Assembly (NCBI GenBank): GCA_022446905.1
Contig: JAKVBT010000011.1
Span: 31,483 to 90,265 of the forward strand
DNA length: 58,783 bases
Direction: 5' to 3'
DNA from: Phycisphaerales bacterium
Lineage (GTDB): Bacteria; Planctomycetota; Phycisphaerae; Phycisphaerales; SM1A02
The notes beneath the pieces are model-generated. The model saw only the letters and a list, made by a program, of their open reading frames with translations, did not search any database and was not told the origin of the DNA. Shown one piece after another: positions 2,479-23,596 of this stretch. The stretch's first letter is position 1; each line of letters starts with the position of its first letter. The translations under genes and the position numbers were made by a program.

Positions 2479-5457
2479 TTAGGGCTGAAGATAGGGGGCG
2501 CGAGTCGTTGTGAAGGGCTCAAGCATTTGTGATTCAAGGCGACTCTTGAGAAGAGCGATGGTTTCAGCCTGAGCCGGATCGCCTGCGATGTTATGCATCT
2601 CTTCGGGATCCGTATGCAGGTCAAAGAACTCCCACGATTCCAGATCGGGAAAGTACATCAATTTCCAGCGATCAGTTCTGATGCCAATATGTGCAGCGAC
2701 CGCGTGCGGCATCGGCTCGTAGTACTCATAGAAGACAGCATCGCGCCATGTGGCATGATCACCAGTGAGCAGTGGGGTAAGACTGGCTCCTGCCATTGGC
2801 ACAGCATCCATTGGGGGCTTAGCGCCACTGATTTCGACAAAAGTCGGAGCGAAATCCAAGTTCTGAACCAGTTCTTTGATGCGCGTGCCTGGTTCAATCA
2901 CGCTAGGCCAGCGCATCAGGAGTGGTACTTTTAGTGATGGTTCATACATGAACCGCTTGTCGTACCAGCCGTGTTCACCAAGAAAGAACCCTTGATCGCT
3001 TGTGTAGATTACGAGGGTGTTGTCAGAGAGGCCAGATGTGTCAAGCCAGTCAAGCACACGGCCAACGTTGTCATCGACTGATGCAATGCAGCGGAGATAG
3101 TCCTTGATGTAGCGCTGATATCGAAGTTCTTTTTGTGCTGTGGCGGCCTCATCGGGATCTTCTATTTGTTGAATATGCTCCATGGAAGCTGCATAGGCTG
3201 CATTGCGTGGTGCATAGGCGTCGTTCCAATCAGCGCGTTGCTGGTCAGACATGCGAGCTAGAACATCGTGCATCCACTTGTCCGGCCCTGCATCTTCAAC
3301 ATCTCCATGTTTGGCATCTATCTTGAGGTCGTAAAAGTCGAAGGTGTGATCGGCAATCGTCATTTCTTGTAACTGGGCAGCAGGTCGGCCAGCCCAGGTA
3401 TCCAGCAGTGTGCTTGGAACTGGTATCTCAGTGTCGTCAAGACTGTGTAGATACTCTGGCCCGGGCATCCAGTTGCGATGCGGTGCCTTGTGTTGCAGCA
3501 TCAACAAGAAAGGGCGATCTGGATGGCGTTGGTGATTCAGCCAATCCAGTGCTAGATCGGTCGTGATGTCGGTCACATACCCATCAATGCGTCTGCGTCC
3601 AGACTCTGAGCGAAAGTCCGGCGCGTAATAGTGGCCCTGACCGGGAAGGACTTCCCAGTGATCAAAACCAGCCGGATCACTGCGAAGATGCCATTTGCCG
3701 ATCATCGCTGTTTGATAGCCAACTTCCTGAAGCATGGAAGGAAATGTAGGGATGGTCGGATCGAGTCTTGTTGCGTTGTCGATAATTCCATTCTGATGGC
3801 TATGCAGTCCTGTGAGCACGACCGCACGTGCGGGAGCGCAGATGCCGTTGGTACAGAAGGCGTTGTCGAATACAGCGCCTTCGGCGGCGATCCGATCGAT
3901 GTTTGGCGTTTGTGTGATTTTGGATCCGTGTGCACTGACTGCTTCGGCTGAGTGATCATCGCTGTAAATGAAGATGATGTTGGGTCGTGCAGCAGTTATG
4001 CCTACAGTCTCAGGAACAGTGATTGGTTTGCCACTATCGATGTCAATTGATGTTTGCGCACCACGGTCCGTCATCCATACGCGCATACGCTCGATCATGT
4101 CGGCAGTGACTTCTGGTTGCTCCGATGAAAGGTTGTGCTGCTCCCCGATGTCATTCGCAAGGTCATAAAGTTCAACGCGCGGGCCGTCATGAAACAGAAT
4201 GAGTTTCCAGTCATCATGTCGGATAGACGTAAATGGTTCGATGCCGGCACCATCTGCGTGTACTTGATGGGGCTGATTCCATCCGATCGTGCGCGGTGTT
4301 TGGTCATCGCCTCGAAAGGCGGCACGTAGGTCGATTCCGTCCGTTAAGTGCTTCGGGGGTGGGCTGATGCCAGCCGCAGCGAGAAAGGTTGGATATAAAT
4401 CATGGGTGACAGCCATGGCCTCCGGTCGACTGCCCGGTGTGGTCAGTCCGGGCCAGCGCACAATCCAAGGAACGCGTGTGCCGCCCTCGTAGGCAGAGGA
4501 TTTGCCGCTGCGTAGAGGGGTATTTCGGTCCTTGGGACGCCCGGCGCGCCCAGAGACGCCGCCATTGTCACTGGTGAAGATCACAATGGTGTCATCTGCG
4601 ATCCCGTTGGCTTCCAATCTGGCAAGGAGGTCACCCACGGCATTATCGACCGACTCGACCATCGTGGCATAGGCTGCTTCACGACCTTCGAGGCCCGGGT
4701 AGTGTTCCAATAGGCGATCGTTGGCCATGACAGGTGTATGTACGGCATAGGGCGCAAAGTTCATGAAGAAGGGGGTGTCATCTTTTGCGGCGCGATCAAT
4801 CTCAGCGCAAGCCTGTTCGCTGAGTGCTTCGGTGAGGTAAATCTTTTGGCCGTGATAGGATTCGAGGCCCGGCACATCCCACACACTTTTTTCCCCTGGC
4901 TTATTGCGTTTACCAGCATGACTGAAGTTGTGCGTGCCGAGGTAGGAGGAAGGAGCGCCGCTTCCGTGTCCAGCAATGTTGACCTCAAATCCAAGGTTCT
5001 TGGGGTCACTGCCAGCGGTGTCGTGAGCACCAAAGTGAGCTTTGCCGACGTGAATTGTTCGATATCCAGCGTCTTGCAATAGTTCTGTCAGGTGGTGTGG
5101 TGATGGTTGCAGCCCATCGGTGTTCCATGCAGGTGGACGAAGCCGAGGGTGTTTTCTGGAGTTGTCTTTGCCTTTGCGCAGTGTCCAAAAAGTTGTTCGG
5201 TGACGCGCAGGTGTCTGGCCAGTCAGCAAACTGACACGAGATGGTGTGCATACTGGCCCACTAGAATATGCATTGGTCAGTACAGCCCCATCGGCAGCGA
5301 GGCGTTCAATATGAGGTGTTCGCCACGCATCGTGATATGGCGCTGACTCGAGGTGCATGCGTACCGCGGTATCCTGCCATCCAAGATCATCGACGTGGAT
5401 CAGCAGGATATTTGGTTGAGTGGTGGCAAACGTCAGCGTGAGCAGTGTTGTGATCAT
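2479..5457 (-). CDS. Two-domain secreted sulfatase (tandem arylsulfatase fusion)
   Basis: 992 residues, about twice the usual sulfatase length. Residues 1-13 are a short signal-like segment. Domain 1 (about 14-470) has the metal Asp pair at 23-24, the formylglycine site C70-T-P-S-R74 and a DNGG metal site near 297-300. Domain 2 (about 490-985) starts anew with PNIIFIYSDDH, and has C540-A-P-A-R544 and a TSDQGFFLGEHGW segment. Both sites fit the C-x-P-x-R signature of family S1 sulfatases, so both halves should be active if matured by a formylglycine-generating enzyme, which is not in this window. The linker is short (about 470-490). Likely substrates are sulfated algal polysaccharides (inference). 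The start at 5457 has only a weak ribosome site. Confidence 0.93.
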   Translation of the reverse strand: MITTLLTLTFATTQPNILLIHVDDLGWQDTAVRMHLESAPYHDAWRTPHIERLAADGAVLTNAYSSGPVCTPSRVSLLTGQTPARHRTTFWTLRKGKDNSRKHPRLRPPAWNTDGLQPSPHHLTELLQDAGYRTIHVGKAHFGAHDTAGSDPKNLGFEVNIAGHGSGAPSSYLGTHNFSHAGKRNKPGEKSVWDVPGLESYHGQKIYLTEALSEQACAEIDRAAKDDTPFFMNFAPYAVHTPVMANDRLLEHYPGLEGREAAYATMVESVDNAVGDLLARLEANGIADDTIVIFTSDNGGVSGRAGRPKDRNTPLRSGKSSAYEGGTRVPWIVRWPGLTTPGSRPEAMAVTHDLYPTFLAAAGISPPPKHLTDGIDLRAAFRGDDQTPRTIGWNQPHQVHADGAGIEPFTSIRHDDWKLILFHDGPRVELYDLANDIGEQHNLSSEQPEVTADMIERMRVWMTDRGAQTSIDIDSGKPITVPETVGITAARPNIIFIYSDDHSAEAVSAHGSKITQTPNIDRIAAEGAVFDNAFCTNGICAPARAVVLTGLHSHQNGIIDNATRLDPTIPTFPSMLQEVGYQTAMIGKWHLRSDPAGFDHWEVLPGQGHYYAPDFRSESGRRRIDGYVTDITTDLALDWLNHQRHPDRPFLLMLQHKAPHRNWMPGPEYLHSLDDTEIPVPSTLLDTWAGRPAAQLQEMTIADHTFDFYDLKIDAKHGDVEDAGPDKWMHDVLARMSDQQRADWNDAYAPRNAAYAASMEHIQQIEDPDEAATAQKELRYQRYIKDYLRCIASVDDNVGRVLDWLDTSGLSDNTLVIYTSDQGFFLGEHGWYDKRFMYEPSLKVPLLMRWPSVIEPGTRIKELVQNLDFAPTFVEISGAKPPMDAVPMAGASLTPLLTGDHATWRDAVFYEYYEPMPHAVAAHIGIRTDRWKLMYFPDLESWEFFDLHTDPEEMHNIAGDPAQAETIALLKSRLESQMLEPFTTTRAPYLQP

Positions 5458-11860: not shown

Positions 11861-13465
11861 ATGAACTCCGCCTTCCAAATGGCCGCTCCAGCGGTCGCCG
11901 CCATCTCTACGCTCTCAATGCTCTCGAGCTCCGCCACTGCTGGCATGGTCTGGACCGCCAACCAGCTCGCAGACGGCCAAGTTCGTTTCTCGGTCGGCGA
12001 CACTGAGGGTGATATCGCTGCTGAATACGCCATCAACTTGTCCGACATCTCCGTCGACCGTGGTATTCGGGCGACGCTCTTTGCTGATCCATCCACAGGC
12101 ATGCAGCACTTGGGCCTGACCTGGGTTGATGCTGATGGGAACCCTCAGTCCACCAGCCTGGAGCAGCATGGTGTGGTGCCTGCTGACTGGTCCACCAGCC
12201 GCGCTAAGTTCAGTTACCGCGCTCAAGAGATCTTGGCCGGTCGTGGCAATGCCATGAACGACAACGTCGTTGGCCAGTTCGACATCAATCCGCTTTCCAA
12301 CGTGGCCGCTCGCACAGAGCTCTTCTCGGTTGTCGGAACCGATGATGATCAGGCTGATGCTAGTCAGATGCTGGCTGGGGATGCTGATGCCAGTGAGCGT
12401 GTGGACGTACTCGACCTCTTGCACGTGCTCAGCAACTTTGGTCGTGATTGTCAGGACATGACCCCTTGCGAAGGCGATGCTGATGGCAACGCCGTAGTTG
12501 ACATCGACGACATTCTGGAAGTGATTCAGCACCTCGGTGACACCGCAGTGGCTACGGACAATGGCCCCAAGCGTCTTCTTTTCTGGCAGCCTGTAGGCGG
12601 TTCTTTCCACTCTGCTGAAAATCATGTGCATCCCCAGATCTACAACGACGAAGATGGCTGGCAGGCCAACGTCAACCATCGCATCGGCCCAGTTGTTGAT
12701 GAGATCGGTGCTGGCACTTTCGATATGTTCATGTGGAACGTGGCCGGTTACTGGTATGACCATGATCAGACGTGGCCTTCCGGTGGTACCCAGTCCATGA
12801 TCTTTGAGCAGGTCGAAAAGGCCCGTCAGCAGCGACCCGGTTTGGTCGACTACACCCCCTTCGCAGAGTTTGCTCATGAAAACGACATCGATCTGTACGG
12901 CTACATCGGTGTTCCTCGCTGCTGGGATCCCAGCGATCAGCCTCGCGGCGGATTCGTTCCCCAGGTTGACCACGGTCTTTCTGACAACCTCAACCGCTTC
13001 TATGGAGAACTCTTTGAGCATGGCTTTAAAGGCATTGGTCACGATGCTGCAGTCGAACTGCCAGAGGACAGCCCTTGGTTGAGCGACATGGCGCCTGAGT
13101 TGCAGCGTCGCGGCATGGAAGTCTTCATCGAAGCATGCCCCCGTCGAAGTCGCCCTTGGTTGCTGGGTATGAGTGTTGTGGCTGAACAGCGCATCTGGGA
13201 CCGTCAGCCAGGGACCTCCCCTGAGACATACTTCACCGAAGAGGAAATCGTCGCTGCTGGCGGCCGTGCCATCCACGTCATCACCTGGCCTTTGGGAATG
13301 GCCCCCAATGATGATGGCTACGACCCCGACTTCAACTACAACCAGTGGCGTTATGACATCTCGCTCCAACTGCTTCAGGAAGGCAAGACGGTTGGTGTCG
13401 GACTCCGCGGACTGCAACTGGCCGGATTCGATATCCAGGCATTGGTCGACGCGTCACGCGACTGA
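11861..13465 (+). CDS. Secreted protein with central dockerin-like pair and unknown C-terminal domain
   Basis: 534 residues; AGGA lies 9 nt before the ATG. Signal peptide about 1-28 (ends SATAG). Residues about 30-165 form a beta domain. A dockerin-like pair follows at about 171-226 (GDADASERVDVLDLLHVLSN and GDADGNAVVDIDDILEVIQH). The last ~300 residues form a new-looking domain with many Trp and acidic residues (FDMFMWNVAGYWYDHDQTW, GIGHDAAVELPED), which could be a TIM-barrel hydrolase, but I cannot place it. Codon use is more C-ending than in the neighbours (GTC, AAC, CGC, CTC), as expected for a highly expressed protein. It has the strongest antisense open frame in the window (11915-13417), a side effect of this codon use. 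Confidence 0.78.
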   Translation: MNSAFQMAAPAVAAISTLSMLSSSATAGMVWTANQLADGQVRFSVGDTEGDIAAEYAINLSDISVDRGIRATLFADPSTGMQHLGLTWVDADGNPQSTSLEQHGVVPADWSTSRAKFSYRAQEILAGRGNAMNDNVVGQFDINPLSNVAARTELFSVVGTDDDQADASQMLAGDADASERVDVLDLLHVLSNFGRDCQDMTPCEGDADGNAVVDIDDILEVIQHLGDTAVATDNGPKRLLFWQPVGGSFHSAENHVHPQIYNDEDGWQANVNHRIGPVVDEIGAGTFDMFMWNVAGYWYDHDQTWPSGGTQSMIFEQVEKARQQRPGLVDYTPFAEFAHENDIDLYGYIGVPRCWDPSDQPRGGFVPQVDHGLSDNLNRFYGELFEHGFKGIGHDAAVELPEDSPWLSDMAPELQRRGMEVFIEACPRRSRPWLLGMSVVAEQRIWDRQPGTSPETYFTEEEIVAAGGRAIHVITWPLGMAPNDDGYDPDFNYNQWRYDISLQLLQEGKTVGVGLRGLQLAGFDIQALVDASRD

Positions 13466-13498: not shown

Positions 13499-14929
13499 TC
13501 AGGTCTGCGGCCCGGCGAGGACTCCATCCTCTGCCGGGTCGTTTGACGTTGGCTGCTCATCCCAGGCTGGATCCCAGTACAGCGGGTCCCAAGGCTCAGT
13601 TGGATCGGTTTGCCCCATGGCACCAAACATCATCGCAAACCGCCCACTGAGGCGCATTGCAAACCAAGCTCCAAGCAATGCCATCATGCCATTCCACATG
13701 AAGAGGCCGGCCTCTCCCCGTGAAAATGCGATGGTCTGTCCCAGTGCGCAGCCGATTGGAATCATGACAAAGGGTCGATGCAGTGCCCAGCGCACACGCT
13801 CATCCAAAAAGCGAACAATCAGTCCAATGCCAATGGCATAAACCGGTAGTGCAATAAAAGGGAAGTCATGGGCAATGTGCCCGATGATCCCCGGGCCGAC
13901 ATTGAAGACGTCGCCCGACCCTTTGTTACGGATGGAGCCGTGGTGGACCATGTCCTTTGCCAGTGGATAGGGCTTGTTTGCCCAGATGTTTCGTGGGACC
14001 GGCATCGCCACGAAGAACTTGATCTGATGCAGGAAGTTGTAGGGATACGCGCTTCCGTAGGTCTCAAGTGCCCACATACTCAGAGGCCCTGAATTTTGAC
14101 CAGAGAGTACGGCAGTCAACGCAGCTGAAAAGTCCTCGGCCCGCATTTGTGAAATGGCGGCGAGGCGATCCACCAGAGTCTGGCGTTCATAATTGCCGCC
14201 CTCACGCCGAGTGGCGGTGTAGACCGAGAGCAGCACAAGGCCAGCGACGGCTGCGATGGTTACGCGGCGAATAAGCAATCCCATCGGGAGGCCACGCCAG
14301 TAGCCGTAGTAGAGGCCCCAAGCGAAAGCAAGCGGAATGCCGACGACACCTCGGCGGCCAAATGACTGATATGACACAAAAGCAATTGCAGCCAGCAGGA
14401 TGATGCCGGCGATGGCCATCAGCATTGGATTACGGAAGTTACGTGACCAAGCCCAAGCCGCGGAGGCAGCAGCAGCTGCCAAGACGCCGGCCGCGGCTTG
14501 TGAGGCAAGAATGCCGATCAGTGGAATCCACATCAGCACAAACTTTAAGAAGCCGCCGATGGCCAGTAAAACGATCGATAGGAAGATCCAGCCACCAGCG
14601 CCGCCGTCCCAGTCACCTTTACCAGGTGTTCTCGCTCGTCTGAGCAGTGCCCACTCGCGTTTGTAGGACCATTCAAAAAGGATCAAGAAAATCGTAGCGA
14701 CAAACGCAAAGATGACTGGTGTTCCCACCTTGTCAGCCGGTTCAAGGTCGCCGTACATACTGAAGGCGAGGCCAAGAATACTGCTGGTGAGTTGGAAGAT
14801 TGTGAAGCCACCAAGGAACACCGTGTGGATGCTGAGAAGTTCGACTTGACGACGCATCGCCAATCGCAGGATGCGAGCGACGATCCAGCAGATAAGGCAG
14901 ACGAGATAGAAGGCAACGAGGAATCGCAT
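13499..14929 (-). CDS. Wzy-like polysaccharide polymerase (polytopic membrane protein)
   Basis: 476 residues with about 10-12 hydrophobic membrane spans. Between spans 8 and 9 is a large soluble loop containing PVPRNIWANKPYPL, close to the PRS-x-W-x-x-KP motif of oligosaccharide repeat-unit polymerases (O-antigen/EPS polymerases of the Wzy type). It would join lipid-linked repeat units on the outer face of the inner membrane. The C-terminal ~50 residues are soluble and acidic (DPTEPWDPLYWDPAWDEQP). It is the last gene of the minus-strand unit starting at 22723, 46 nt after the phosphatase stop. No clear ribosome site precedes the ATG. Flippase and initiating transferase are not in the window. 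Confidence 0.68.
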   Translation of the reverse strand: MRFLVAFYLVCLICWIVARILRLAMRRQVELLSIHTVFLGGFTIFQLTSSILGLAFSMYGDLEPADKVGTPVIFAFVATIFLILFEWSYKREWALLRRARTPGKGDWDGGAGGWIFLSIVLLAIGGFLKFVLMWIPLIGILASQAAAGVLAAAAASAAWAWSRNFRNPMLMAIAGIILLAAIAFVSYQSFGRRGVVGIPLAFAWGLYYGYWRGLPMGLLIRRVTIAAVAGLVLLSVYTATRREGGNYERQTLVDRLAAISQMRAEDFSAALTAVLSGQNSGPLSMWALETYGSAYPYNFLHQIKFFVAMPVPRNIWANKPYPLAKDMVHHGSIRNKGSGDVFNVGPGIIGHIAHDFPFIALPVYAIGIGLIVRFLDERVRWALHRPFVMIPIGCALGQTIAFSRGEAGLFMWNGMMALLGAWFAMRLSGRFAMMFGAMGQTDPTEPWDPLYWDPAWDEQPTSNDPAEDGVLAGPQT

Positions 14930-14975
14930 GGCGGGCGTTTGTGCCTCAAATCATAGGGCTCGAGGCAGGGTCAGA

Positions 14976-16244
14976 TTACGCCTTTCGATGAATAGCAAGT
15001 ATGGTTCGATCATCCTGAGCAGGTAGGCCGGGGCGGAAACCCTCGCAGTCCTCGCGAAGGTGCTGGAGCAACTCGGGCAGGGGTCGGTTTCGGCCAGCAA
15101 CGAGTAAGTCAACCAGTCGATCCTGACCATACATCGTGCCATCATCCAGCATGGCTTCAATGATCCCGTCTGTGGGTATGGCGAGTAGGTCACCTGGCTC
15201 TATGTGGATCGGGATGGTTTCAGTAGCCATCAGGGTGTCGATGACTCCAAGCGGGGGGACGTCGGCTTCGAGCACGGTGACTGCGCCATTGTCGCGAATC
15301 AGGAGCATTGGGCCATGTCCCGCAGCAATTGAATCGATGACTCCAGTATCGGCATGCAAGCGACCAAACCAAGCGGTTACGAACTGCATCGGTGAGGTGT
15401 CCTGCCACAGTTGGTGATTCAGTTGGGTCACCATATTGAGCAGTGGGGCATCCAGTCGAACGGCCATGCGTAGCATGGATCGCACCTGAGTTACTGAAAT
15501 GGCCGGTCCAATCCCATGTCCGGTTGCATCACCGACCATCAAGGTTGCGCCACCCTCTACCTCGACGACATCAAAGGCATCGCCACCGGTCTCCTCAGCC
15601 GGCATGCTCCAACCGTGAATTTCCCAGTTCTCAAACGCCGGAAACTCGCTTGGAAAGGTGGCACTTTGAATCTCTCGCGCTAGATCAAGATCACGCTGCA
15701 GTTTGACCAGCTCCAGACGGTCCTCCAGCAGGCGTGCGCGACGCATTGCTACGGCAGACTGTGCGGCCAGCGCGGTTGCAATGCGTTCGCATTCTTGGCC
15801 AAAGGGTTCGCCCCGTCGGTTAAGCACTTGCGCGACGCCGACGAGTTGATCGACGTCCGCAGCGACTAGCGGAATGGTCAAAATGCTGCGGGTTCGGTAT
15901 CCCGTCTTTTCATCAATGCCTCGATAGAAGCGTTCGTCGGCATAGGCATCAGGAATGTTGATGATGGAGCGCTCTGCCCCAGCGGTGCCGGCAATGCCTT
16001 TTCCCAGCGGCACTCGGATATCACCAAGGTCTTCCATGAGCGATCCATCGGGCCCATGCCCGGCAACAGCTACGAGTTCATCATCATTCTTGCGGTACTC
16101 AAAAACAGTTGCTCGCTCGGCGTCGAGAATGTCCCGCAGGCAGTCTGCCACTCTTGAGATGACGGCCTGTGAATCGTCGGTGCTTCCCAGTACACGACAG
16201 ACTTCCAGAATGCGATCCACTTGTTCTGGTGAAATGTCAGGCAC
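14976..16244 (-). CDS. GAF-domain SpoIIE/PP2C-type serine phosphatase
   Basis: 422 residues from a GTG at 16244, chosen because AGGAG lies exactly 6 nt upstream; a TTG two codons earlier overlaps the spacer. The GAF domain covers about 10-170 (ERATVFEYRKNDDELVAVAG), then a coiled linker (LVKLQRDLDLAREIQSATF) of the type that precedes RsbU/SpoIIE phosphatases. The PP2C domain (about 195-420) has GGDAFDVV, MVGDATGHGIGPA and the final DDRTILAI with the metal Asp residues. Such enzymes dephosphorylate anti-sigma-antagonist (STAS) proteins in response to a signal sensed by the GAF domain. No STAS or anti-sigma kinase is encoded nearby, so the target is unknown. It sits 33 nt after the cyclase gene. 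Confidence 0.9.
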   Translation of the reverse strand: MPDISPEQVDRILEVCRVLGSTDDSQAVISRVADCLRDILDAERATVFEYRKNDDELVAVAGHGPDGSLMEDLGDIRVPLGKGIAGTAGAERSIINIPDAYADERFYRGIDEKTGYRTRSILTIPLVAADVDQLVGVAQVLNRRGEPFGQECERIATALAAQSAVAMRRARLLEDRLELVKLQRDLDLAREIQSATFPSEFPAFENWEIHGWSMPAEETGGDAFDVVEVEGGATLMVGDATGHGIGPAISVTQVRSMLRMAVRLDAPLLNMVTQLNHQLWQDTSPMQFVTAWFGRLHADTGVIDSIAAGHGPMLLIRDNGAVTVLEADVPPLGVIDTLMATETIPIHIEPGDLLAIPTDGIIEAMLDDGTMYGQDRLVDLLVAGRNRPLPELLQHLREDCEGFRPGLPAQDDRTILAIHRKA

Positions 16245-16277
16245 AACCAACTCCTGTAGGCACGATGTCTGTGCAGA

Positions 16278-18959
16278 TTACTTGTCTGTCAGGTTGATTG
16301 CCTGAGGTATTTCATCTGCCGTATCAATGACGCGTCGGTAGAGATCAAGTCGATCCTGATTGGATTCCAGTTTGGATAGGGCGACCAATGCTGCGTTGGC
16401 AGCCTTTTGGTTGCCGGCTCGAATCGCAGCAGCCAGATCGATAGAGGCTTGAGCGAGTTCTTCAGAAGGTGGTTCGGTCATCAGCGTCCAAACATCCACG
16501 ATGGCATCCCGGCCAACGACTTTGACCGGGCCGATTTCCAAGAGTGACTGCTGTTGGCTCAATTGCGATTTGGTTGTGCCGTCGAGCAGGATGTTGGTGC
16601 CGAACTGTTTGTTCGCCGATTCCAGCCGAGCTGCAAGATTGGCGACATCGCCGATCACGGTGTAGTCATTCAACTCAGGTGGTGCTCCACAGTCGCCAAC
16701 AATGGCCTCGCCAGTGGCAATGCCGATCCTCAATCCAAGGTGTGTTTCTCCGGCTGGAAACGATTTGTTTAAATCGGCCATGAACCGTTGGCAGGAGATA
16801 GCAGCTCGCGCTGCTAATGCGGCTTGGTCTGCTTGGGTGCCAAACGCCGACCAGAATGCAAGGAATCCATCGCCGAGAAACTTGTTGAGGTAGGCACCAT
16901 GGTCCGTGACTCGACGGGTTAATCCCGCCATCGCATTGTTGAGCAGCGCTACAGTTTCTTCGCTGTCCAATTGTTCGCTGATGGTTGTGAAACCTGCGAG
17001 GTCACCAAACATCACGCAGACTTCACGCCGTACACCACGCATGCTCAACGCATCTGGGTCGCGGGCGAGTTCATCGACCAAAATATCTGGAACACGGGCT
17101 CGGAACTGTCGATTGATTCTGCGTTTCTCTCGCTGTACCACGACAGCTCGGGCGGCAGTGCCGCCTGCCCAAGACATGGTGATGCCTACGAGCGGTGCAG
17201 CGAGCGGCATCAAGATGTGAGCTTGTGCAAACAGGAGGCTCGTTGCTCCAATCCACCCACCAGCGATTAGTAGAGTGCTGATAGTGGTTGGCCAAGCGGT
17301 CAGAGTCGCGGTCAGCAGTGCGATGATTAATCCCAAGGCAGCCGCCATGATGCTTGACCACCATGCTGGGAATTCACTGAGGGTGCGTTGTTGCAGCACC
17401 ATGTCCGCCATTGCAGCGTGCACCATCACTCCTGGAGTTCGAGCCCCAGCAGCTGTGGGAACAAAGTCCGCTGTGGTTCCAGTGCCAGTCCAGCCAATGA
17501 ATACCAAGTGGTCATTGACATGCTCTCGCAGCGACGCTTCTACAGCTGCGATTCGCGCAGCAGTATCTGCAGCAGCACGACGAGCCAATCGCCAGTCGAG
17601 CATGCGCTGCATCATGGATCGGGTTGTGAGGTCGGCGCCTACCAGTGCTTCTTCAAGTGCTGCAGTGGAATAAACATCGCCCAGTGCAAACGAAATTTCT
17701 TCTTCAATTAGCGCCTGAGTATCTGCAGACATGAGGTCCTGCCCCTCATCAATAGAGATGGCGAGGGCAGGAAGGAGGTCAGCGGAGGCCGACTTTTGCA
17801 GTGTGCTTTGCGCTTTATGAAGTTCACGTGAGCGGCCGAGCATGACGACCTCGCCGATGGACAAGTGTCCAGCAAATCGTTCATCTTCTGATTTTCGGTG
17901 AAGATCTGGCCAGTAGATTCCATGTTCACCACGGGGCCAAGAGACTGTGATGGCCTTGTCTAGCAAAGCAAACTGCAGGTTGCCCATCAGCAGCGTATCC
18001 GCTGTCATGTCAATTTCTTCAGAAGGAATGTTGAGATAGCGTGCGGCTGCGGCCAAGCCAAGTGGAAGGATTGCTTCTTTATGTCCAATAGGCTGGCTCG
18101 CATGAATGCGACGTACTCCGCCATCTTGGTCGCGCCGGACAATATTCACGTAGCCAATACCAGCACTATCTTGGGCAAACGACGGCAGCGGAAAGCGATC
18201 AGCAACTGTTGGCGGCTGTGATCGACTGACCACAAGGTTGCCATGAATCACCTGCCTGCCCTGCATCTGCAGTAGGGCTGCGTCTATGGTTGGCTGCAAC
18301 GCACCTCCGCGATTCCCAGCCAAGGCGTACAGTTGTTCTGTTGTAGCGCCTTCATTGGCTAAATCATGAATGGCGCGGCGCCTTAAGAGGTGCATGACAG
18401 TGTTCGCCGCAGCCAAATCAGATTTGGTCATCGAGGTGGTGTTATCACCTGGGGTCCAAGAAAGATCGGTGCGTAGGTTTTGCAATGCGGCGTTCAAACC
18501 TTCTGCGGTGCCGCCCGCTTCGTCCCATCGTGTCTGCAATTCATCCGGCATCAGCAGCGCGCCGAGCACCACAGTGTGATCAATGGTGTCGGCCAATTGC
18601 ATGTCATGGTGAATTTGTGCGTGTGGAGGGGTTGGTGAGACAGTCGGTTGCTGCGGGTCTGCGAGATCCAGATCTACCGCGATGGTTCTTGCACCGGCAC
18701 GTTGCAATTCGCTGATGGCGTGGGCAAGGTCGGTGCGTGGCCAAGGCCAACGGCCAAGCCTTTCGAGCGCCCGATCATCGATATCGACCATGACGATGCG
18801 GTCGTCCATGGGAGCCACATCCTGAGGAAAGGTGCGCTGGACATAGTCCAGCAATTGGTCGCTCCAGGTCGTAAAGACGCCGGCTCGATCAAGCAAAACG
18901 ACCAAGAGCGTCATCACAACGCTGGCCGACAGGATGCGGGTATCAGTCTGAATGCTCAA
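16278..18959 (-). CDS. CHASE2-domain class III adenylate/guanylate cyclase
   Basis: 893 residues. One membrane helix (about 10-28), a large extracytoplasmic CHASE2 sensor region (about 30-525, beginning DQLLDYVQRTFP and DDRIVMVDIDDRALERLGRW), then three closely spaced membrane helices (about 530-610), then a class III cyclase domain (about 640-830). The cyclase has MFGDLAGFT and LGDGFLAFW with the two metal Asp residues, YLNKFLGDG with the substrate Lys, and DYTVIGDVANLAARLE with the catalytic Asn and Arg. All catalytic positions look intact, so it should make cAMP (or cGMP) in response to an envelope signal. The pairing with a FecR protein upstream is a recurring arrangement for CHASE2 cyclases. 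The region just after CHASE2 (about 385-500) is long and partly helical. Confidence 0.92.
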   Translation of the reverse strand: MSIQTDTRILSASVVMTLLVVLLDRAGVFTTWSDQLLDYVQRTFPQDVAPMDDRIVMVDIDDRALERLGRWPWPRTDLAHAISELQRAGARTIAVDLDLADPQQPTVSPTPPHAQIHHDMQLADTIDHTVVLGALLMPDELQTRWDEAGGTAEGLNAALQNLRTDLSWTPGDNTTSMTKSDLAAANTVMHLLRRRAIHDLANEGATTEQLYALAGNRGGALQPTIDAALLQMQGRQVIHGNLVVSRSQPPTVADRFPLPSFAQDSAGIGYVNIVRRDQDGGVRRIHASQPIGHKEAILPLGLAAAARYLNIPSEEIDMTADTLLMGNLQFALLDKAITVSWPRGEHGIYWPDLHRKSEDERFAGHLSIGEVVMLGRSRELHKAQSTLQKSASADLLPALAISIDEGQDLMSADTQALIEEEISFALGDVYSTAALEEALVGADLTTRSMMQRMLDWRLARRAAADTAARIAAVEASLREHVNDHLVFIGWTGTGTTADFVPTAAGARTPGVMVHAAMADMVLQQRTLSEFPAWWSSIMAAALGLIIALLTATLTAWPTTISTLLIAGGWIGATSLLFAQAHILMPLAAPLVGITMSWAGGTAARAVVVQREKRRINRQFRARVPDILVDELARDPDALSMRGVRREVCVMFGDLAGFTTISEQLDSEETVALLNNAMAGLTRRVTDHGAYLNKFLGDGFLAFWSAFGTQADQAALAARAAISCQRFMADLNKSFPAGETHLGLRIGIATGEAIVGDCGAPPELNDYTVIGDVANLAARLESANKQFGTNILLDGTTKSQLSQQQSLLEIGPVKVVGRDAIVDVWTLMTEPPSEELAQASIDLAAAIRAGNQKAANAALVALSKLESNQDRLDLYRRVIDTADEIPQAINLTDK

Positions 18960-19009
18960 TGCGCCACAAGCGTATCAGGCCCCTGTGGTGCTTCGCAAAG
19001 TTCTCAAGA

Positions 19010-20563
19010 TCAGGGGCAGAATGGGCAGTCGTCGCCTGTCTCAACGTTCCCGCCGTAGTTCGGGTCCTGGAGCCCATATCCATATGGGGTGAGACCTTGC
19101 TGTTCGTTGTAGATCAGACCTTCAATAGCCTGGGCAAATGCTGCTCGGCACACCTCGATCTGGTTGCCGTCCCCATCAAATGTCTGCATGCAGAAGGTGT
19201 TGATCGATGCGGCCATCACACTGAGATCTTCCGAGTTGGAAAATGGCTGGCCCGACCAATTTTGATCGCCATAGTCGAGTATGCGCTGATAAGCGTTTGC
19301 AAGCGATGACTCGCCTGTGGGCAGCGGAGCACCCCAAGGAACATGGAGCATCGTCATGCCATCGTGTTCATGTAGGTAGTTAGACCGGCTTGGGTCATAA
19401 AATCCGGTGTGGGCATAGAGGCCATTTTCGAAGTTGGCCGCAATGCGATGCCCATGTGGGTTGTATGGATCGACATGGGTCGGCACATTCTCAAAGTGAA
19501 AGTCCCAGTAGAGGGCTGTCGCAACTGCCCCACGGTCCTCAGGCAGAAGGATGCCATTTGCAAATGTCCGATCTGTAATTGGATTGACTCCGCCATGCTC
19601 TTGGTCGAAGTACCACGAGTATCCAGGCATACCGAAGTAGTTGTCATCTTCGTAGACCAGATCCTCAAGAATCTCCTCGTTGATCTCCTGCTGCTGGTCC
19701 GCCAATAGGATGCGAGTCGATTGATTGATCGGGTCTGAATTCGAGACTGCCTGGGTGGTCTGGTCGGACGCGTCCTGGAGATCCTGAGCCTCTGCCGCGA
19801 TCAGCGGAGGCGGGCCCGCGGTCTGGAATGCTTCAGCACTGGCTGGATCAGGAGAAGCCTGTGTCGAGATGGCATTGCCCGACATCAGGTGTTGCACCTT
19901 GCTGCCGTAGTACTTCATCGCGATTGCCTTCATGGCGTTGGTTCGTGCACCAACGACCCGGGTGCCCTTGAGCGCGCTATGCGATACCGCCATGCCGGTA
20001 CCCCGAACAGCCAGCGCGCCTGAAGGAGTGAGTACCGAGAAGTCATTGGTGAGTCCCACTTGGCCGACTTGGAGGTCGGCACGTCCACGATTGACCTGAA
20101 TTGCAGTGCGAAGCACGTCGCCAGCATGGACAATCTCCGGAAGTGAAACCCGGGATCCGCTGTCGATGAGCACATTGGCATTGAGGCCAACTCGCAGCAG
20201 CATCCACGACCGGAGTCCTGTGCGAATGATGGCACCAGGTTTGATGATGTCATCTTTGCTGGCTTTCTTCCAAGGCGCTTCAGGATTGGCACGCCATTGC
20301 ACTCGCCCGGTGACATCCATGACCACGGCGCGGAGCACCTTAATCTCGTCTTTCTCGAGGGGCTTGACGGACTCAAGGGCGACTTGTTTGAGCATCTCAA
20401 GGCGGCGCTGCGCCCCTTGGCTCTGTAGGCCAGGTGCTGGGGCGAGGCTTTCCTGAGTGGTATTGGTTTCAACTGGGGCGTTGTCCTGAGCAACAGCCAG
20501 CGATACAGGGCTGCTGGCCAGAGCAGCGATGAGCATGGGAATCATGGAGATGCGTGCAATCAT
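19010..20563 (-). CDS. Secreted FecR-domain protein
   Basis: 517 residues. Signal peptide 1-26 (ends LAVAQ). A FecR-like beta domain lies at about 75-200 (TGRVQWRANPEAPWKKA, PGAIIRTGLRSWMLLRVG, FSVLTPSGALAVRGTG). The C-terminal ~300 residues are acidic and Pro/Gln-rich, with no known domain, and end in DDCPFCP. FecR domains outside iron transport are often periplasmic sensors paired with CHASE2 cyclases, as here. The ATG overlaps the stop of the upstream lipoprotein gene (ATGA) and the stop lies 50 nt before the cyclase start, so the gene is inside one operon. There is no sigma factor or TonB receptor, so a FecIR iron system is not supported. Confidence 0.85.
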   Translation of the reverse strand: MIARISMIPMLIAALASSPVSLAVAQDNAPVETNTTQESLAPAPGLQSQGAQRRLEMLKQVALESVKPLEKDEIKVLRAVVMDVTGRVQWRANPEAPWKKASKDDIIKPGAIIRTGLRSWMLLRVGLNANVLIDSGSRVSLPEIVHAGDVLRTAIQVNRGRADLQVGQVGLTNDFSVLTPSGALAVRGTGMAVSHSALKGTRVVGARTNAMKAIAMKYYGSKVQHLMSGNAISTQASPDPASAEAFQTAGPPPLIAAEAQDLQDASDQTTQAVSNSDPINQSTRILLADQQQEINEEILEDLVYEDDNYFGMPGYSWYFDQEHGGVNPITDRTFANGILLPEDRGAVATALYWDFHFENVPTHVDPYNPHGHRIAANFENGLYAHTGFYDPSRSNYLHEHDGMTMLHVPWGAPLPTGESSLANAYQRILDYGDQNWSGQPFSNSEDLSVMAASINTFCMQTFDGDGNQIEVCRAAFAQAIEGLIYNEQQGLTPYGYGLQDPNYGGNVETGDDCPFCP

Positions 20564-21237
20564 GGTGCAACCTCGATGGCATCTGTTGCCGTTGGTGTCG
20601 GAGCAGGTGATGCTGTCTGATCCGAGGCGGGCGTGCCTTGCGGGCCCCCCGCGTTGATGGCCTCCTTGGAAGCCGGTGGCGTACTGGGCCTCTTTGCTGC
20701 TTGATCACGGGCAGCCAAGGCCATATCCAACCACTGTTGCTGCTCCGTAGCGGCAATCAGGGCTAAAAACTCAGACCCGGTGAGGGCCTCGTTCTCCGTT
20801 ATGCCTGGAAGTAGCCCCATGTGAACCAGTTCTCGGGTGGAATATCGAGGAATTTTCCCCATAAGCCGCATGGACAGACCACCCTGCACATCCAGTATGT
20901 GGCAGACGCATACAGCGATCATGCCGACGCGGGCGGATTCTTTGGCCTGGAGTTTGATGTCTTTCTTGAGCCATCCCCTGCGTTGTGCGGCTTCTAGCCG
21001 TTGATTCCAGTCCGCTGGTGGCGGGGATTCTTGCACGAGCAGCAGGAGTCCATGCAGGGCATCGTCATTGGTGGTCACAGATTGTGATTCGAGCGTATCC
21101 CAGAAGTCCAATGAATCGTCACTGGTTGGCCACTGAACGACGGCTGACTTTTCCACAGTGCTACGTTCCGTGAGTCCGCAACCAACAAGTGATATGAGAA
21201 GTCCAATTGAAACAAGTAGGCGGAATTCAGAACGCAT
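20560..21237 (-). CDS. Lipoprotein of unknown function in the FecR-cyclase operon
   Basis: 225 residues from the ATG at 21237, with AGGA 8 nt upstream; the frame extends 84 nt further but the signal starts here. The signal peptide ends in a canonical lipobox L-V-G-C20, so the protein is a lipoprotein. The body has a helical middle (residues about 60-165) without a recognised family, and a low-complexity Ala/Pro/Thr C-terminus. The start overlaps the end of the beta-barrel gene by 11 nt and the end overlaps the FecR gene by 4 nt, so the three are coupled. It could be a barrel partner or an envelope sensor component. Confidence 0.8.
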   Translation of the reverse strand: MRSEFRLLVSIGLLISLVGCGLTERSTVEKSAVVQWPTSDDSLDFWDTLESQSVTTNDDALHGLLLLVQESPPPADWNQRLEAAQRRGWLKKDIKLQAKESARVGMIAVCVCHILDVQGGLSMRLMGKIPRYSTRELVHMGLLPGITENEALTGSEFLALIAATEQQQWLDMALAARDQAAKRPSTPPASKEAINAGGPQGTPASDQTASPAPTPTATDAIEVAP

Positions 21238-22723
21238 AGCTGATTCCTCCATAGACGAATTGGCGAACTTGATCAGCGAACGTATCTGCCGGATTGCCGC
21301 GGTTGGGTATGAAGAGGCCATACCGGAAATTGAAACTCACATCGCTGGTAATCCGCCAGTCAAGGCGTATGTCCGTTTCCCACCCGATCCAGCGCTGATT
21401 CGTTGTTGGTACCGAGGCTGGCGAGCCAACGGTGGTCTTGCCAAAGAGGAAGACATCGAGACCAATTCGGAGGTCATTGGGCCGCTTTGGATTGATGGGT
21501 ATGGCGGTGCTCCCGCCAATTCGAGCCATGAGCAAGTTCGTGATGTTTGGTGCCAGTGCGAGGCCAGTATTGATGTACCCAAGACTGTTGAATGCTCGAT
21601 CATTCGACCCCGTCTGGTTTCCGCCAAGGGTGTTGGCACTTGCGAGGCGGTCGCCATCTCCGGTACCGAAGGCCAGTGTGCATTCGATTCGTGAAAGTGA
21701 ATCATCACGTGCCATGTAGACCATATTGAGTACGCCCGCCCATGCCTCAATGGACTCTTCAGTTTGAATCCACGCAGTGCCAGCTGGATTGATAAATGGC
21801 GTAGATAGGCCATTGCCGTTCTCATACACCATTTCAAGGGAATACAAAAACTGGTTGCCGATTGAGCCGTTGGATCCAAATGACAGGTAGTTGGAGTCGT
21901 AGTGATACTCAACAGGGATGAGGGGTGGGCCAGGCCCAGGGTTGACCAACACCAAGCGATCATCATTGTGGTCACGCTGCATGAAGTAGGACACAAATGG
22001 AGAGATTTCAGGGGTGAGTTCGTATTCGGCACGGACTGCGTAGGCGCGTCGATGTGTATCGGTGTCGTAATTGGGTCGTGAAATGTCGAAGTCGTACAGT
22101 CCACTGCGTGCACTGGTGCCGACCAGTCCTTCGATAGAGAGCTTGTCCCAGCTCAGTCGCATCTTGGCAGCGTAGAGATCGTTGCTCCAGACAAGGCCTG
22201 AGTTCCAGTTGACGAATTGTCTGCCGACTCGGATGTTGAAGTCAAAGTCGCCCTTGGCGCCTTCCGTAGCCTGTTGCCAGTTGGCTAGATCGAATTCGTA
22301 CCAGTATCGGTTTCCGATGGGGTCGAGAAGATCACTCTCGGTGTCGCTGTTGTAATAGTCGCTGTAAAGAAATCTGAGGTTGCCAAAGAACCGATGTCCT
22401 CCGGCAATCGTCGCCTGCATGTACGCATTGGCTTCATATTGTCGCAGGCCGTAGGGCTCACGCTGGGCATTGTCCAGTTTTGCCCAGCCAAGACGAATGG
22501 ATGCGCCATAGTCAAAGGTCATTTGCTCACCGAGGGTCTGTCCTCGGTGTTCATCAAGCCTGCGCTGAATCTCGGCATCGAGCATCTGCTGTTCGAGCCG
22601 ATTGATCAGGGCCGTTTCGCGGTCTTGTGCCATTGCGGGCCCGGTCGCCCAGCCCAGCATCGCGCCCACCATCAGTAGGGCGACAAGCAGACATTTTCTG
22701 GTCGTGGATCGGTGACTGTCCAA
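21227..22723 (-). CDS. Outer-membrane beta-barrel, alginate-export-like
   Basis: 498 residues from a TTG at 22723, chosen because AAGGAG lies exactly 6 nt upstream and the product then opens with a proper signal peptide (ends GPAMAQ, residue 33); the frame extends much further but without a ribosome site and into the divergent gene. A short coiled segment (RLEQQMLDAEIQRRLDE) leads into a long beta-rich region with alternating hydrophobic strands and a C-terminal ...QFVYGGISYAF ending in Phe, as in outer-membrane proteins. RVGRQFVNWNSG and the overall plan resemble the alginate-export (AlgE-like) family. It probably passes polysaccharide or another polymer across the outer membrane. It is the first gene of the operon ending with the Wzy-like polymerase. 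Confidence 0.75.
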   Translation of the reverse strand: MDSHRSTTRKCLLVALLMVGAMLGWATGPAMAQDRETALINRLEQQMLDAEIQRRLDEHRGQTLGEQMTFDYGASIRLGWAKLDNAQREPYGLRQYEANAYMQATIAGGHRFFGNLRFLYSDYYNSDTESDLLDPIGNRYWYEFDLANWQQATEGAKGDFDFNIRVGRQFVNWNSGLVWSNDLYAAKMRLSWDKLSIEGLVGTSARSGLYDFDISRPNYDTDTHRRAYAVRAEYELTPEISPFVSYFMQRDHNDDRLVLVNPGPGPPLIPVEYHYDSNYLSFGSNGSIGNQFLYSLEMVYENGNGLSTPFINPAGTAWIQTEESIEAWAGVLNMVYMARDDSLSRIECTLAFGTGDGDRLASANTLGGNQTGSNDRAFNSLGYINTGLALAPNITNLLMARIGGSTAIPINPKRPNDLRIGLDVFLFGKTTVGSPASVPTTNQRWIGWETDIRLDWRITSDVSFNFRYGLFIPNRGNPADTFADQVRQFVYGGISYAF

Positions 22724-22849: not shown

Positions 22850-23596
22850 ATGCAAGTGGTCATAACAGGCATCGGCGACGCTTTCAGTGCACACCATCAT
22901 GGTTCCAGCTGCGTTGTGCTCGCCCCAGGGGGACATGTGGCCATCGACTGTCCTGGATCGGTCATGGCCATGTACCGCCAAGCCGCTGAGACCAGTGGCC
23001 TGACTCTGGGCGTGGAGAAGATTGACGACTTGGTGTTGACTCACCTGCATGGTGATCACAGCAATGGGTTGGAGGCCTTTGCCTTTGCTCGCCGTTATCT
23101 CTATCAGCCATCGACACGACCGAGGTTGCATGCACTCCCGGAGGTGCTCGCTCGGGTTTGGGACAAGCTTGCTCCAGCCATGGATGGAGCCACCCGTGCT
23201 GAGAGTGCGATGAGCACCTTGGAGGACTACTTCGAGCCATGTCCCATCGAGCCTGGTGTGCCCGTTGAGGTTGCAGGGCTCAAGATGGAAGTTCGGCGCA
23301 CAGCCCATTCTGTCCCGACAGCGGGGGTCCTGATGCGATCAGGGTCTGGGACACTGGGTTGGTCGGGTGATACGGAATTTGAAATGGCCCATATTGACTG
23401 GCTTGGACAGGCCGACTGCATCGTGCATGAATGCGGAGAGCACTTCAAGCACACACATTGGGCCGAGTTGGATTCTCTAAGCGAGGCCGTCAAGGAGAAG
23501 ATCCGGCTCATCCACCTGCCCGATGGCACTGAGGTGCCTGATGGTCCAATGCGTCCGCTGCGAGAGGGCGAAGTGTTGGACATGAAGAACTGCTGA
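22850..23596 (+). CDS. Metallo-beta-lactamase-fold hydrolase
   Basis: 248 residues from the ATG at 22850 (MQVVITGIGDAFSAHHHGS). The metal motif H-x-H-x-D-H is present as LTHLHGDHSNG (about residues 60-70), with later ligands in RTAHSVPTAG, SGDTEF and HECGEHF. The plan resembles RNase Z/phosphodiesterase-like members of the superfamily, but length and C-terminus do not decide between them. The gene is divergent from the beta-barrel operon (126 nt apart) and 55 nt upstream of gcvP on the same strand, so it may be co-transcribed with it. Confidence 0.85.
   Translation: MQVVITGIGDAFSAHHHGSSCVVLAPGGHVAIDCPGSVMAMYRQAAETSGLTLGVEKIDDLVLTHLHGDHSNGLEAFAFARRYLYQPSTRPRLHALPEVLARVWDKLAPAMDGATRAESAMSTLEDYFEPCPIEPGVPVEVAGLKMEVRRTAHSVPTAGVLMRSGSGTLGWSGDTEFEMAHIDWLGQADCIVHECGEHFKHTHWAELDSLSEAVKEKIRLIHLPDGTEVPDGPMRPLREGEVLDMKNC

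Follow-up and report, generated by a model that had tools for sequence, protein, structure and literature searches.

Does the run of six minus-strand genes at positions 13,499 to 22,723 of a 58,783-nt stretch of Phycisphaerales bacterium DNA (assembly GCA_022446905.1, contig JAKVBT010000011.1, positions 31,483 to 90,265; the whole stretch is called the window below) constitute one system? A first-pass annotation had proposed that an outer-membrane barrel, a lipoprotein, a FecR protein, a CHASE2-cyclase, a GAF-PP2C phosphatase and a Wzy-like polymerase together sense the envelope and control the synthesis and export of a surface polysaccharide. Our analysis showed that the cassette is a real and conserved candidate trans-envelope signalling unit with an associated phosphatase, and not one six-part system. 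The genes in question are the following:

21227..22723, minus strand, TTG start: outer-membrane beta-barrel, presumed surface receptor or porin
20560..21237, minus strand: lipoprotein with a fold of the S-layer homology (SLH) type, probable cell-wall anchor (predicted binding)
19010..20563, minus strand: FecR-domain protein (PF04773), N-terminus with a hydrophobic segment; presumably a relay in the periplasm
16278..18959, minus strand: CHASE2 sensor (long form) with a class III cyclase, inner membrane (PF05226, PF00211)
14976..16250, minus strand: GAF-PP2C (SpoIIE-type) phosphatase, proposed receptor and effector of cyclic AMP (cAMP) (PF07228, PF01590)
13499..14929, minus strand: multi-spanning membrane protein, 'Wzy-like' in the first-pass annotation, co-directional but outside the conserved system
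22850..23596, plus strand: Apyc1-like metallo-beta-lactamase (MBL) enzyme, divergent, proposed off-switch that degrades cyclic nucleotide monophosphates (cNMPs) (PF23023); the open reading frame (ORF) opens at 22712 and the domain starts at about 22850

According to these coordinates, the spacings from the barrel gene through the lipoprotein, FecR, CHASE2-cyclase and GAF-PP2C genes to the Wzy-like gene are -11, -4, 50, 27 and 46 nt. The six minus-strand ORFs and the overlaps of 4-11 nt that had been described are borne out, whereas the smallest gap, between the CHASE2-cyclase and GAF-PP2C genes, is 27 nt rather than 33 nt, the latter value applying only if a later in-frame start is used. A scan for promoters and terminators was uninformative: its counts reached at most the shuffled mean, from which they differed by no more than one standard deviation.

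To see which of these genes belong together, partly overlapping sets of loci were compared. The named loci are the best 80 of 93 relatives with close barrels, so that the barrel is present by construction, and the denominators given below are the loci with enough sequence; most are metagenome-assembled genomes titled Phycisphaerales, Phycisphaerae or Planctomycetota, and a few are titled otherwise (e.g. L219 Vicinamibacteraceae, L234 Chitinophaga). The unnamed loci come from a CHASE2 search of 120 genomes of the class, 68 of which were positive at E<=0.001; 59 new neighbourhoods were taken (L018 additional), and profiles were built. As L179 and L107 look the same, for instance, the two sets are not independent. 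In the class neighbourhoods the barrel, the lipoprotein, FecR and the long form of CHASE2 recur jointly and mostly in that order, and in the named loci the lipoprotein was found in 74/74, FecR in 63/65 and CHASE2 in 46/47 cases; FecR lies 3' instead of 5' of CHASE2 in L203, L218, L227, L230 and L239.

The same picture is obtained from whole genomes. Profile searches placed the barrel in 58 (E<1e-100), the lipoprotein in 55 and GAF-PP2C in 52 (E<1e-90) of the 120 class genomes, where both thresholds were chosen after the score gaps were visible, the GAF-PP2C model (A3) begins mid-GAF, most rows being trimmed there, and the GAF-PP2C match of G111 stops at model position 246 of 327. Of the 120 genomes, 56 have both barrel and long CHASE2 and are called core genomes here, and only three genomes are discordant (G051 and G094 with the barrel only, G074 with CHASE2 only); the long set includes three CHASE2 proteins with a PP2C tail, and some of the proteins counted as long end at contig ends (e.g. 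G007, G058). Since both genes lie on one stretch in just 28 of the 56 core genomes, the window counted, and were not so seen in the other 28, the association is more than linkage. It was assessed in the 111 genomes with a family label (the nine unlabelled ones were left out) by 20,000 shuffles of labels within families, a procedure that leaves some shared ancestry. The overlap of barrel and long CHASE2 was 56 vs a shuffle mean of 45.8 (p=5e-5, the floor), with 48/50 concordant in mixed families. Corresponding values were 47 vs 40.6 for barrel and GAF-PP2C (p=1e-4) and 45 vs 39.2 for long CHASE2 and GAF-PP2C (p=6.5e-4), whereas the control pair, barrel and PF00027, showed no association (37 vs 36.0, p=0.33). 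Short-form CHASE2 proteins, which are without about 370 model positions of the long form, do not take part in this pattern: the six genomes with the short form only (G016, G041, G072, G080, G092, G098) have no barrel at E<1e-100.

The barrel extends to other classes as well: it was found in 29 of 294 genomes of the phylum (E<=1e-30), six of these 29 being in the order of the window's own genome, and 20 neighbourhoods from 19 genomes outside the class contained the lipoprotein in 20/20, FecR in 18/20 and CHASE2 in 11/20 cases. The conserved unit is therefore barrel-lipoprotein-FecR-CHASE2-cyclase, with a linkage far beyond chance. The single envelope unit with cyclic-nucleotide output that the first-pass annotation had seen here is supported by the linkage in the named loci and by the genome-wide co-occurrence. 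When its six-gene order was followed across Phycisphaerae, the four-gene core proved to be kept, GAF-PP2C adjoins it in part of the loci (22/40) and the Wzy-like gene rarely does (3/30).

The description of the barrel as alginate-exporter-like holds up. The window protein scores just 22.3 bits against Alginate_exp (PF13372), under the Pfam cut-off of 25.2, and 53 of 57 family members match this model at E<=0.01 (best 2.8e-15). A search of PDB sequences gave no match. The AlphaFold2 model (mean confidence, pLDDT, 82; residues 1-44 below 50) has 18 long strands by our own count, preceded by a signal peptide, recognised by eye, and a helix. Its top 17 PDB rows in Foldseek are all AlgE, at TM scores of 0.59-0.62 and 12-15% identity, followed by OmpM1 and MOMP, and lower down by general porins of the chitoporin, OprB and OccK types. 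As the latter are listed too, an AlgE fold, here a predicted one, would by itself be no proof of export.

The lipobox Cys of the second protein is present in 75/75 sequences. Its model (pLDDT 87) finds SLH domains in the 15 best Foldseek rows (best E 1.8e-3, probability 1.00), and with VIA an SLH match was obtained at Z 12.2 over 127 residues with a root-mean-square deviation of 2.8, the first row beyond S-layer proteins having a Z of 3.3. Pfam has no convincing match for the window's lipoprotein, and only weak SLH matches were seen among PDB sequences (best E=0.08). The modelled fold suggests that this lipoprotein may grip the cell wall.

The third protein, FecR, carries PF04773 at residues 113-196 with 23.8 bits, just under the cut-off of 24, and seems to be a secreted protein. 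Its ORF exceeds 1000 residues in 19 of 79 cases in the named loci, and such long FecR proteins could bridge the periplasm. Very long versions are found at L109:7619-12862, L114:7202-11722, L200:5259-11261 and L227:15185-21430, and in L031, L109 and L114 the FecR sequence is extended at its C-terminus by an Ala-rich, probably helical part. Several cassettes contain two or three FecR genes (L035, L042, L047, L049, L173, L177, L181).

Both domains of the fourth protein match above the Pfam cut-offs (PF05226, CHASE2, 127.9 bits; PF00211, Guanylate_cyc, 64.9 bits), and the protein is the sole match to either family in its own genome. The cyclase residues D653, K693, D697, T767, N774 and R778, which we take to be catalytic or substrate positions like D765, are kept in 55/55 sequences, and D765 in 49/55. 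This conservation fits an active adenylate cyclase, with cAMP as the probable product as judged from the conserved Lys and Asp.

GAF-PP2C matches SpoIIE (PF07228) with 136.4 and GAF (PF01590) with 52.4 bits, both above the Pfam cut-offs. The metal-binding residues of PP2C (D224, D241, D361, D413, D414) are found in 29/29 sequences, and F108, D113, T116 and T120 of the GAF domain, which are presumably nucleotide contacts, are invariant in the same 29. The GAF domain has 22 matches among PDB sequences. The strongest of these are 1ykd (E=1.2e-26), which we take to be the GAF domain of the adenylate cyclase CyaB2 with cAMP, PDE2A and PDE5, with 10A coming later; 1mc0 is matched at 1.1e-25, and the list also includes a phosphohydrolase and, at its weak end, PtsP-type GAF domains. 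A pocket sequence of the PDE/CyaB type is thus present in the domain, and cNMP binding is predicted from it. With regard to position, PP2C adjoins the CHASE2 stop in 22 of 40 named loci, 10 times on the same strand and 12 times convergently, at most 484 nt away; nine further loci with a convergent PP2C were too short to enter this count.

In three loci of one family, f10 (L018, L061, L085), the CHASE2 protein itself ends in PP2C in place of the cyclase. The barrel, lipoprotein and FecR genes lie on the same stretch as the PP2C-tailed CHASE2 gene in L061 and L085, 4-5 kb off and in L061 on the opposite strand. None of the three swap genomes has a GAF-PP2C at E<1e-90, vs 8 of the 53 other core genomes without one (Fisher p=0.006); since all three belong to one family, this absence may represent one event. 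In a tree of the phosphatase domains, the three swapped PP2C domains, 56 GAF-PP2Cs and one SpoIIE protein (L156) form a group (0.986) apart from five other SpoIIE domains. Taken together, GAF-PP2C is associated with the core: the proposed joining of a SpoIIE-type phosphatase to the envelope unit is supported as an association by the adjacency, the genome-wide co-occurrence and the CHASE2-PP2C swap.

A seventh gene, which had not been counted with the six, lies upstream of the barrel. Its product matches PF23023 with 60.5 bits (Pfam cut-off 50), RNase Z-type models matching weakly too, and its best PDB matches are the Apyc1 entries 7u2s and 7u2r. The HxHxDH metal ligands are intact in 48/48 sequences. 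In 44 of 66 named loci the gene precedes the barrel, and it is missing in 22; its distance in L205 is 2.8 kb. It is present in all 17 loci that have a barrel identity of at least 48% and room for it, and is kept also where gcvP was not found near (e.g. L183, L185). Closely related B. subtilis MBL enzymes are reported to favour cAMP and cGMP (PMC9117128), and the Apyc1-like enzyme is proposed as a cyclic-mononucleotide off-switch, its activity being predicted from sequence.

What would such a set of proteins do? All the evidence is computational: linkage, co-occurrence, folds, intact residues and the swap are computed, and signal flow, ligand, cAMP binding and target are inferred. The explanation that we favour, with somewhat better than even confidence, is a trans-envelope receptor in which the signal passes from barrel and lipoprotein by way of FecR to the CHASE2-cyclase and, through cAMP, to GAF-PP2C, with removal by the Apyc1-like enzyme. 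In such a chain, the AlgE-type barrel and the SLH-type lipoprotein, presumably anchored to the wall, would respond to a ligand at the surface or to the condition of outer membrane and wall, and the periplasmic FecR protein would hand the signal to the CHASE2 domain of the inner-membrane cyclase. The cyclase would then make cAMP (a substrate suggested by the conserved Lys and Asp), which would bind the GAF domain of the phosphatase, and the latter might act on a phosphoprotein, perhaps a STAS anti-sigma antagonist, while the divergent Apyc1-like enzyme would remove the cAMP signal. We hold it a little short of an even chance that cAMP directly switches a partner-switching GAF-PP2C instead of a CRP regulator, with one family bypassing the messenger by CHASE2-PP2C. 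The search for a cyclic-nucleotide receptor or a STAS target elsewhere in the window's own genome, as had been suggested, gave a divided result, with six STAS matches and no PF00027 match, where, at 96% completeness, a missed copy is possible; a target of the phosphatase did not emerge.

A number of observations weigh against this explanation. On the side of the input, the lipoprotein is SLH by predicted fold only, as there is no Foldseek row at E<=0.001 and no Pfam SLH family for 59 members at E<=0.1, and a VIA Z below about 13 can be due to a layout that many helical proteins share; the drop from 12.2 to 3.3, however, speaks against this in the present case. On the side of the relay, the separate FecR protein SMc02177 of S. 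meliloti is reported to have been dispensable for signal perception (PMC5498481). On the side of the output, the NKFDE motif of the window GAF domain is degenerate (R145, C154). CHASE2 has no PP2C next to it in 18 of 40 loci, and where they adjoin the orientation is frequently convergent, so that the two are not always co-transcribed. Five genomes have GAF-PP2C without the barrel, and the eight core genomes that have neither the swap nor GAF-PP2C (E<1e-90) include five that also lack PF00027. Clustering of the neighbourhoods of 20 unlinked GAF-PP2Cs gave no neighbour in at least four loci besides the phosphatase and its antisense ORFs, and a conserved neighbour as PP2C target was rejected on this result. 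In the tree, the SpoIIE protein of L156 groups more closely with the GAF-PP2Cs (0.81) than do the swapped domains, which tells against the swapped PP2C as sister of the GAF-PP2Cs alone; on this tree it is not specifically a GAF-PP2C derivative. Finally, 36 of the 56 core genomes have PF00027 proteins, which might read cAMP, and GAF-PP2C is weakly associated with PF00027 (within-family shuffles, p=0.034).

The last two points, together with the inconstant adjacency of PP2C, speak for another arrangement, in which the receptor-cyclase works as proposed but cAMP is read elsewhere, by a PF00027 protein or another receptor, and PP2C is a parallel output with another GAF ligand; GAF domains bind many ligands. 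We consider this unlikely, although it deserves attention, because 20 of the 56 core genomes, the window's own included, are without PF00027 and 15 of these 20 have GAF-PP2C, because no contig was seen to have PF00027 and long CHASE2 genes less than 10 kb apart (read by eye) and because PP2C can replace the cyclase on CHASE2. PF00027 as general receptor was rejected given its lack of association with the barrel. A further possibility concerns the input only and otherwise overlaps with the favoured receptor-cyclase chain: barrel and SLH lipoprotein might mainly be a structural tether like a split OmpM, with FecR-CHASE2 monitoring the tethering and not a ligand. The SLH fold of the lipoprotein, the place of OmpM1 as first fold after AlgE and the occurrence of barrel and lipoprotein together also where CHASE2 lies elsewhere would fit this. 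A barrel that is present in 58 of 120 genomes is, however, not a general tether of the class, and we regard the tether, too, as rather unlikely.

Comparison with known systems gives partial likenesses. In FecA-FecR-FecI, the signal passes from an outer-membrane barrel to FecR and to the inner side; the cassette differs in that its barrel is of the AlgE type (18 long strands) and not of the TonB type, and in that no sigma factor is found among its Pfam matches. In OmpM, SLH and barrel are combined in one protein, whereas in the cassette, whose barrel has OmpM1 as the next fold after AlgE, the SLH-type fold is on a separate lipoprotein. AlgE and Alginate_exp resemble the barrel in fold and family score, but no match to a family of alginate synthesis was found among the six proteins.

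Closest of the known systems is the NsrA pathway of S. meliloti, where the outer-membrane barrel NsrA is reported to be required for the CHASE2 cyclases CyaK, CyaD1 and CyaD2 to raise cAMP, with Clr as receptor (PMC7529298, PMC13001267, PMC5498481). Both pathways have an outer-membrane barrel and a CHASE2 cyclase, the CHASE2 sensor of the cassette being fused to a class III cyclase with intact catalytic residues. A protein of 1190 aa is encoded on pSymB of S. meliloti R28 (L267:3409-6981) by a gene that shares 1 nt with cyaK; it combines FecR and TPR and ends in a weak barrel match, and its length and place suggest that it is probably NsrA. FecR, barrel and TPR form one polypeptide there, whereas the genes are separate in the window and the 80 named loci. 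The barrel family could not be aligned with this protein (hhalign probability 0.2, single-sequence query), and the annotation around cyaK shows no SLH lipoprotein. Moreover, Clr is a CRP-type receptor, in contrast to the missing PF00027 match in the window's own genome. With no FecR-barrel fusion and no CRP receptor, the cassette is not a member of the NsrA pathway by parts, and by analogy it probably corresponds in its working to a split NsrA in which the barrel is another one, an SLH lipoprotein is added and the receptor is probably not the same. The 'BiofilmReg' operon of Burkholderia also pairs a wall-binding FecR protein with a CHASE2 sensor, but has a histidine kinase and response regulator as output, carries LysM on its FecR protein and is described without mention of a barrel in the part of the paper at hand (PMC5192318). 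In the open-licence literature, to which our search was limited, nothing was found that combines a FecR domain, adenylate cyclase and Planctomycetes, or partner switching, cyclic AMP, a GAF domain and a phosphatase.

The cassette is thus a candidate chain from surface to wall to cytoplasm in more than one class of the phylum. For bacteria with a class III cyclase but without PF00027, it leads to the prediction that the receptor is a GAF-gated phosphatase, and the natural exchange of cyclase and phosphatase on one sensor would represent a built-in experiment on the contribution of the second messenger.

There remains the sixth gene of the window and the polysaccharide for which it had been taken to stand. 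The product of this gene contains some eight hydrophobic segments, and neither it nor its 11 relatives match any family in Pfam or any PDB sequence, so that its identity as Wzy-like was not confirmed; O-antigen polymerase families diverge strongly. Of the 30 named loci that extend far enough to show it, 3 have the gene. Among 101 genomes of the order, 34 have a homologue, 35 the barrel (E<1e-100) and eight both (G000, G124, G090, G107, G113, G119, G123, G132), vs about 12 expected by chance, and in only two of these eight, G000 (the window's own genome) and G124, do the two lie on one contig, where they are neighbours. Among the five loci with the most similar barrels (64-68% identity), L168, L169 and L171 have PP2C without the Wzy-like gene after it and L170 has both, L167 being too short. 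The polymerase half is therefore separable from barrel and FecR, the polymerase was rejected as a part of the system, and the gene is a passenger, a neighbour in few close relatives only. Control of surface-polysaccharide synthesis is not supported. That the barrel exports a surface polysaccharide whose synthesis cyclase and phosphatase control could draw on its AlgE fold and on the multi-spanning membrane protein encoded after PP2C in the window and in L170, L178 and L179. Such a role appears very improbable to us in view of the rarity of the gene in loci and genomes, the missing polymerase family, the lack of any glycosyltransferase match (Pfam) among the six proteins and the porins below AlgE in the fold list.

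Some minor observations concern the surroundings. In family f10, the short-form CHASE2 cyclases of G016, G041, G055 and G092 have a PF00027 match at a distance of less than 5 kb (read by eye) and perhaps constitute a separate CHASE2 subsystem. Beyond the Apyc1-like gene, the window encodes a gcvP-like protein, recognised by reading, and then a 2-hydroxyacid dehydrogenase. A 992-aa protein at 2479-5457 (minus strand) matches type I phosphodiesterase in its N-terminal and sulfatase in its C-terminal half. Convergent with the Wzy-like gene, the ORF at 11861-13465 (plus strand) encodes a protein that is apparently secreted and bears acidic repeats of a dockerin-like kind (by eye); homologues occupy the corresponding position in L170, L178 and L179.

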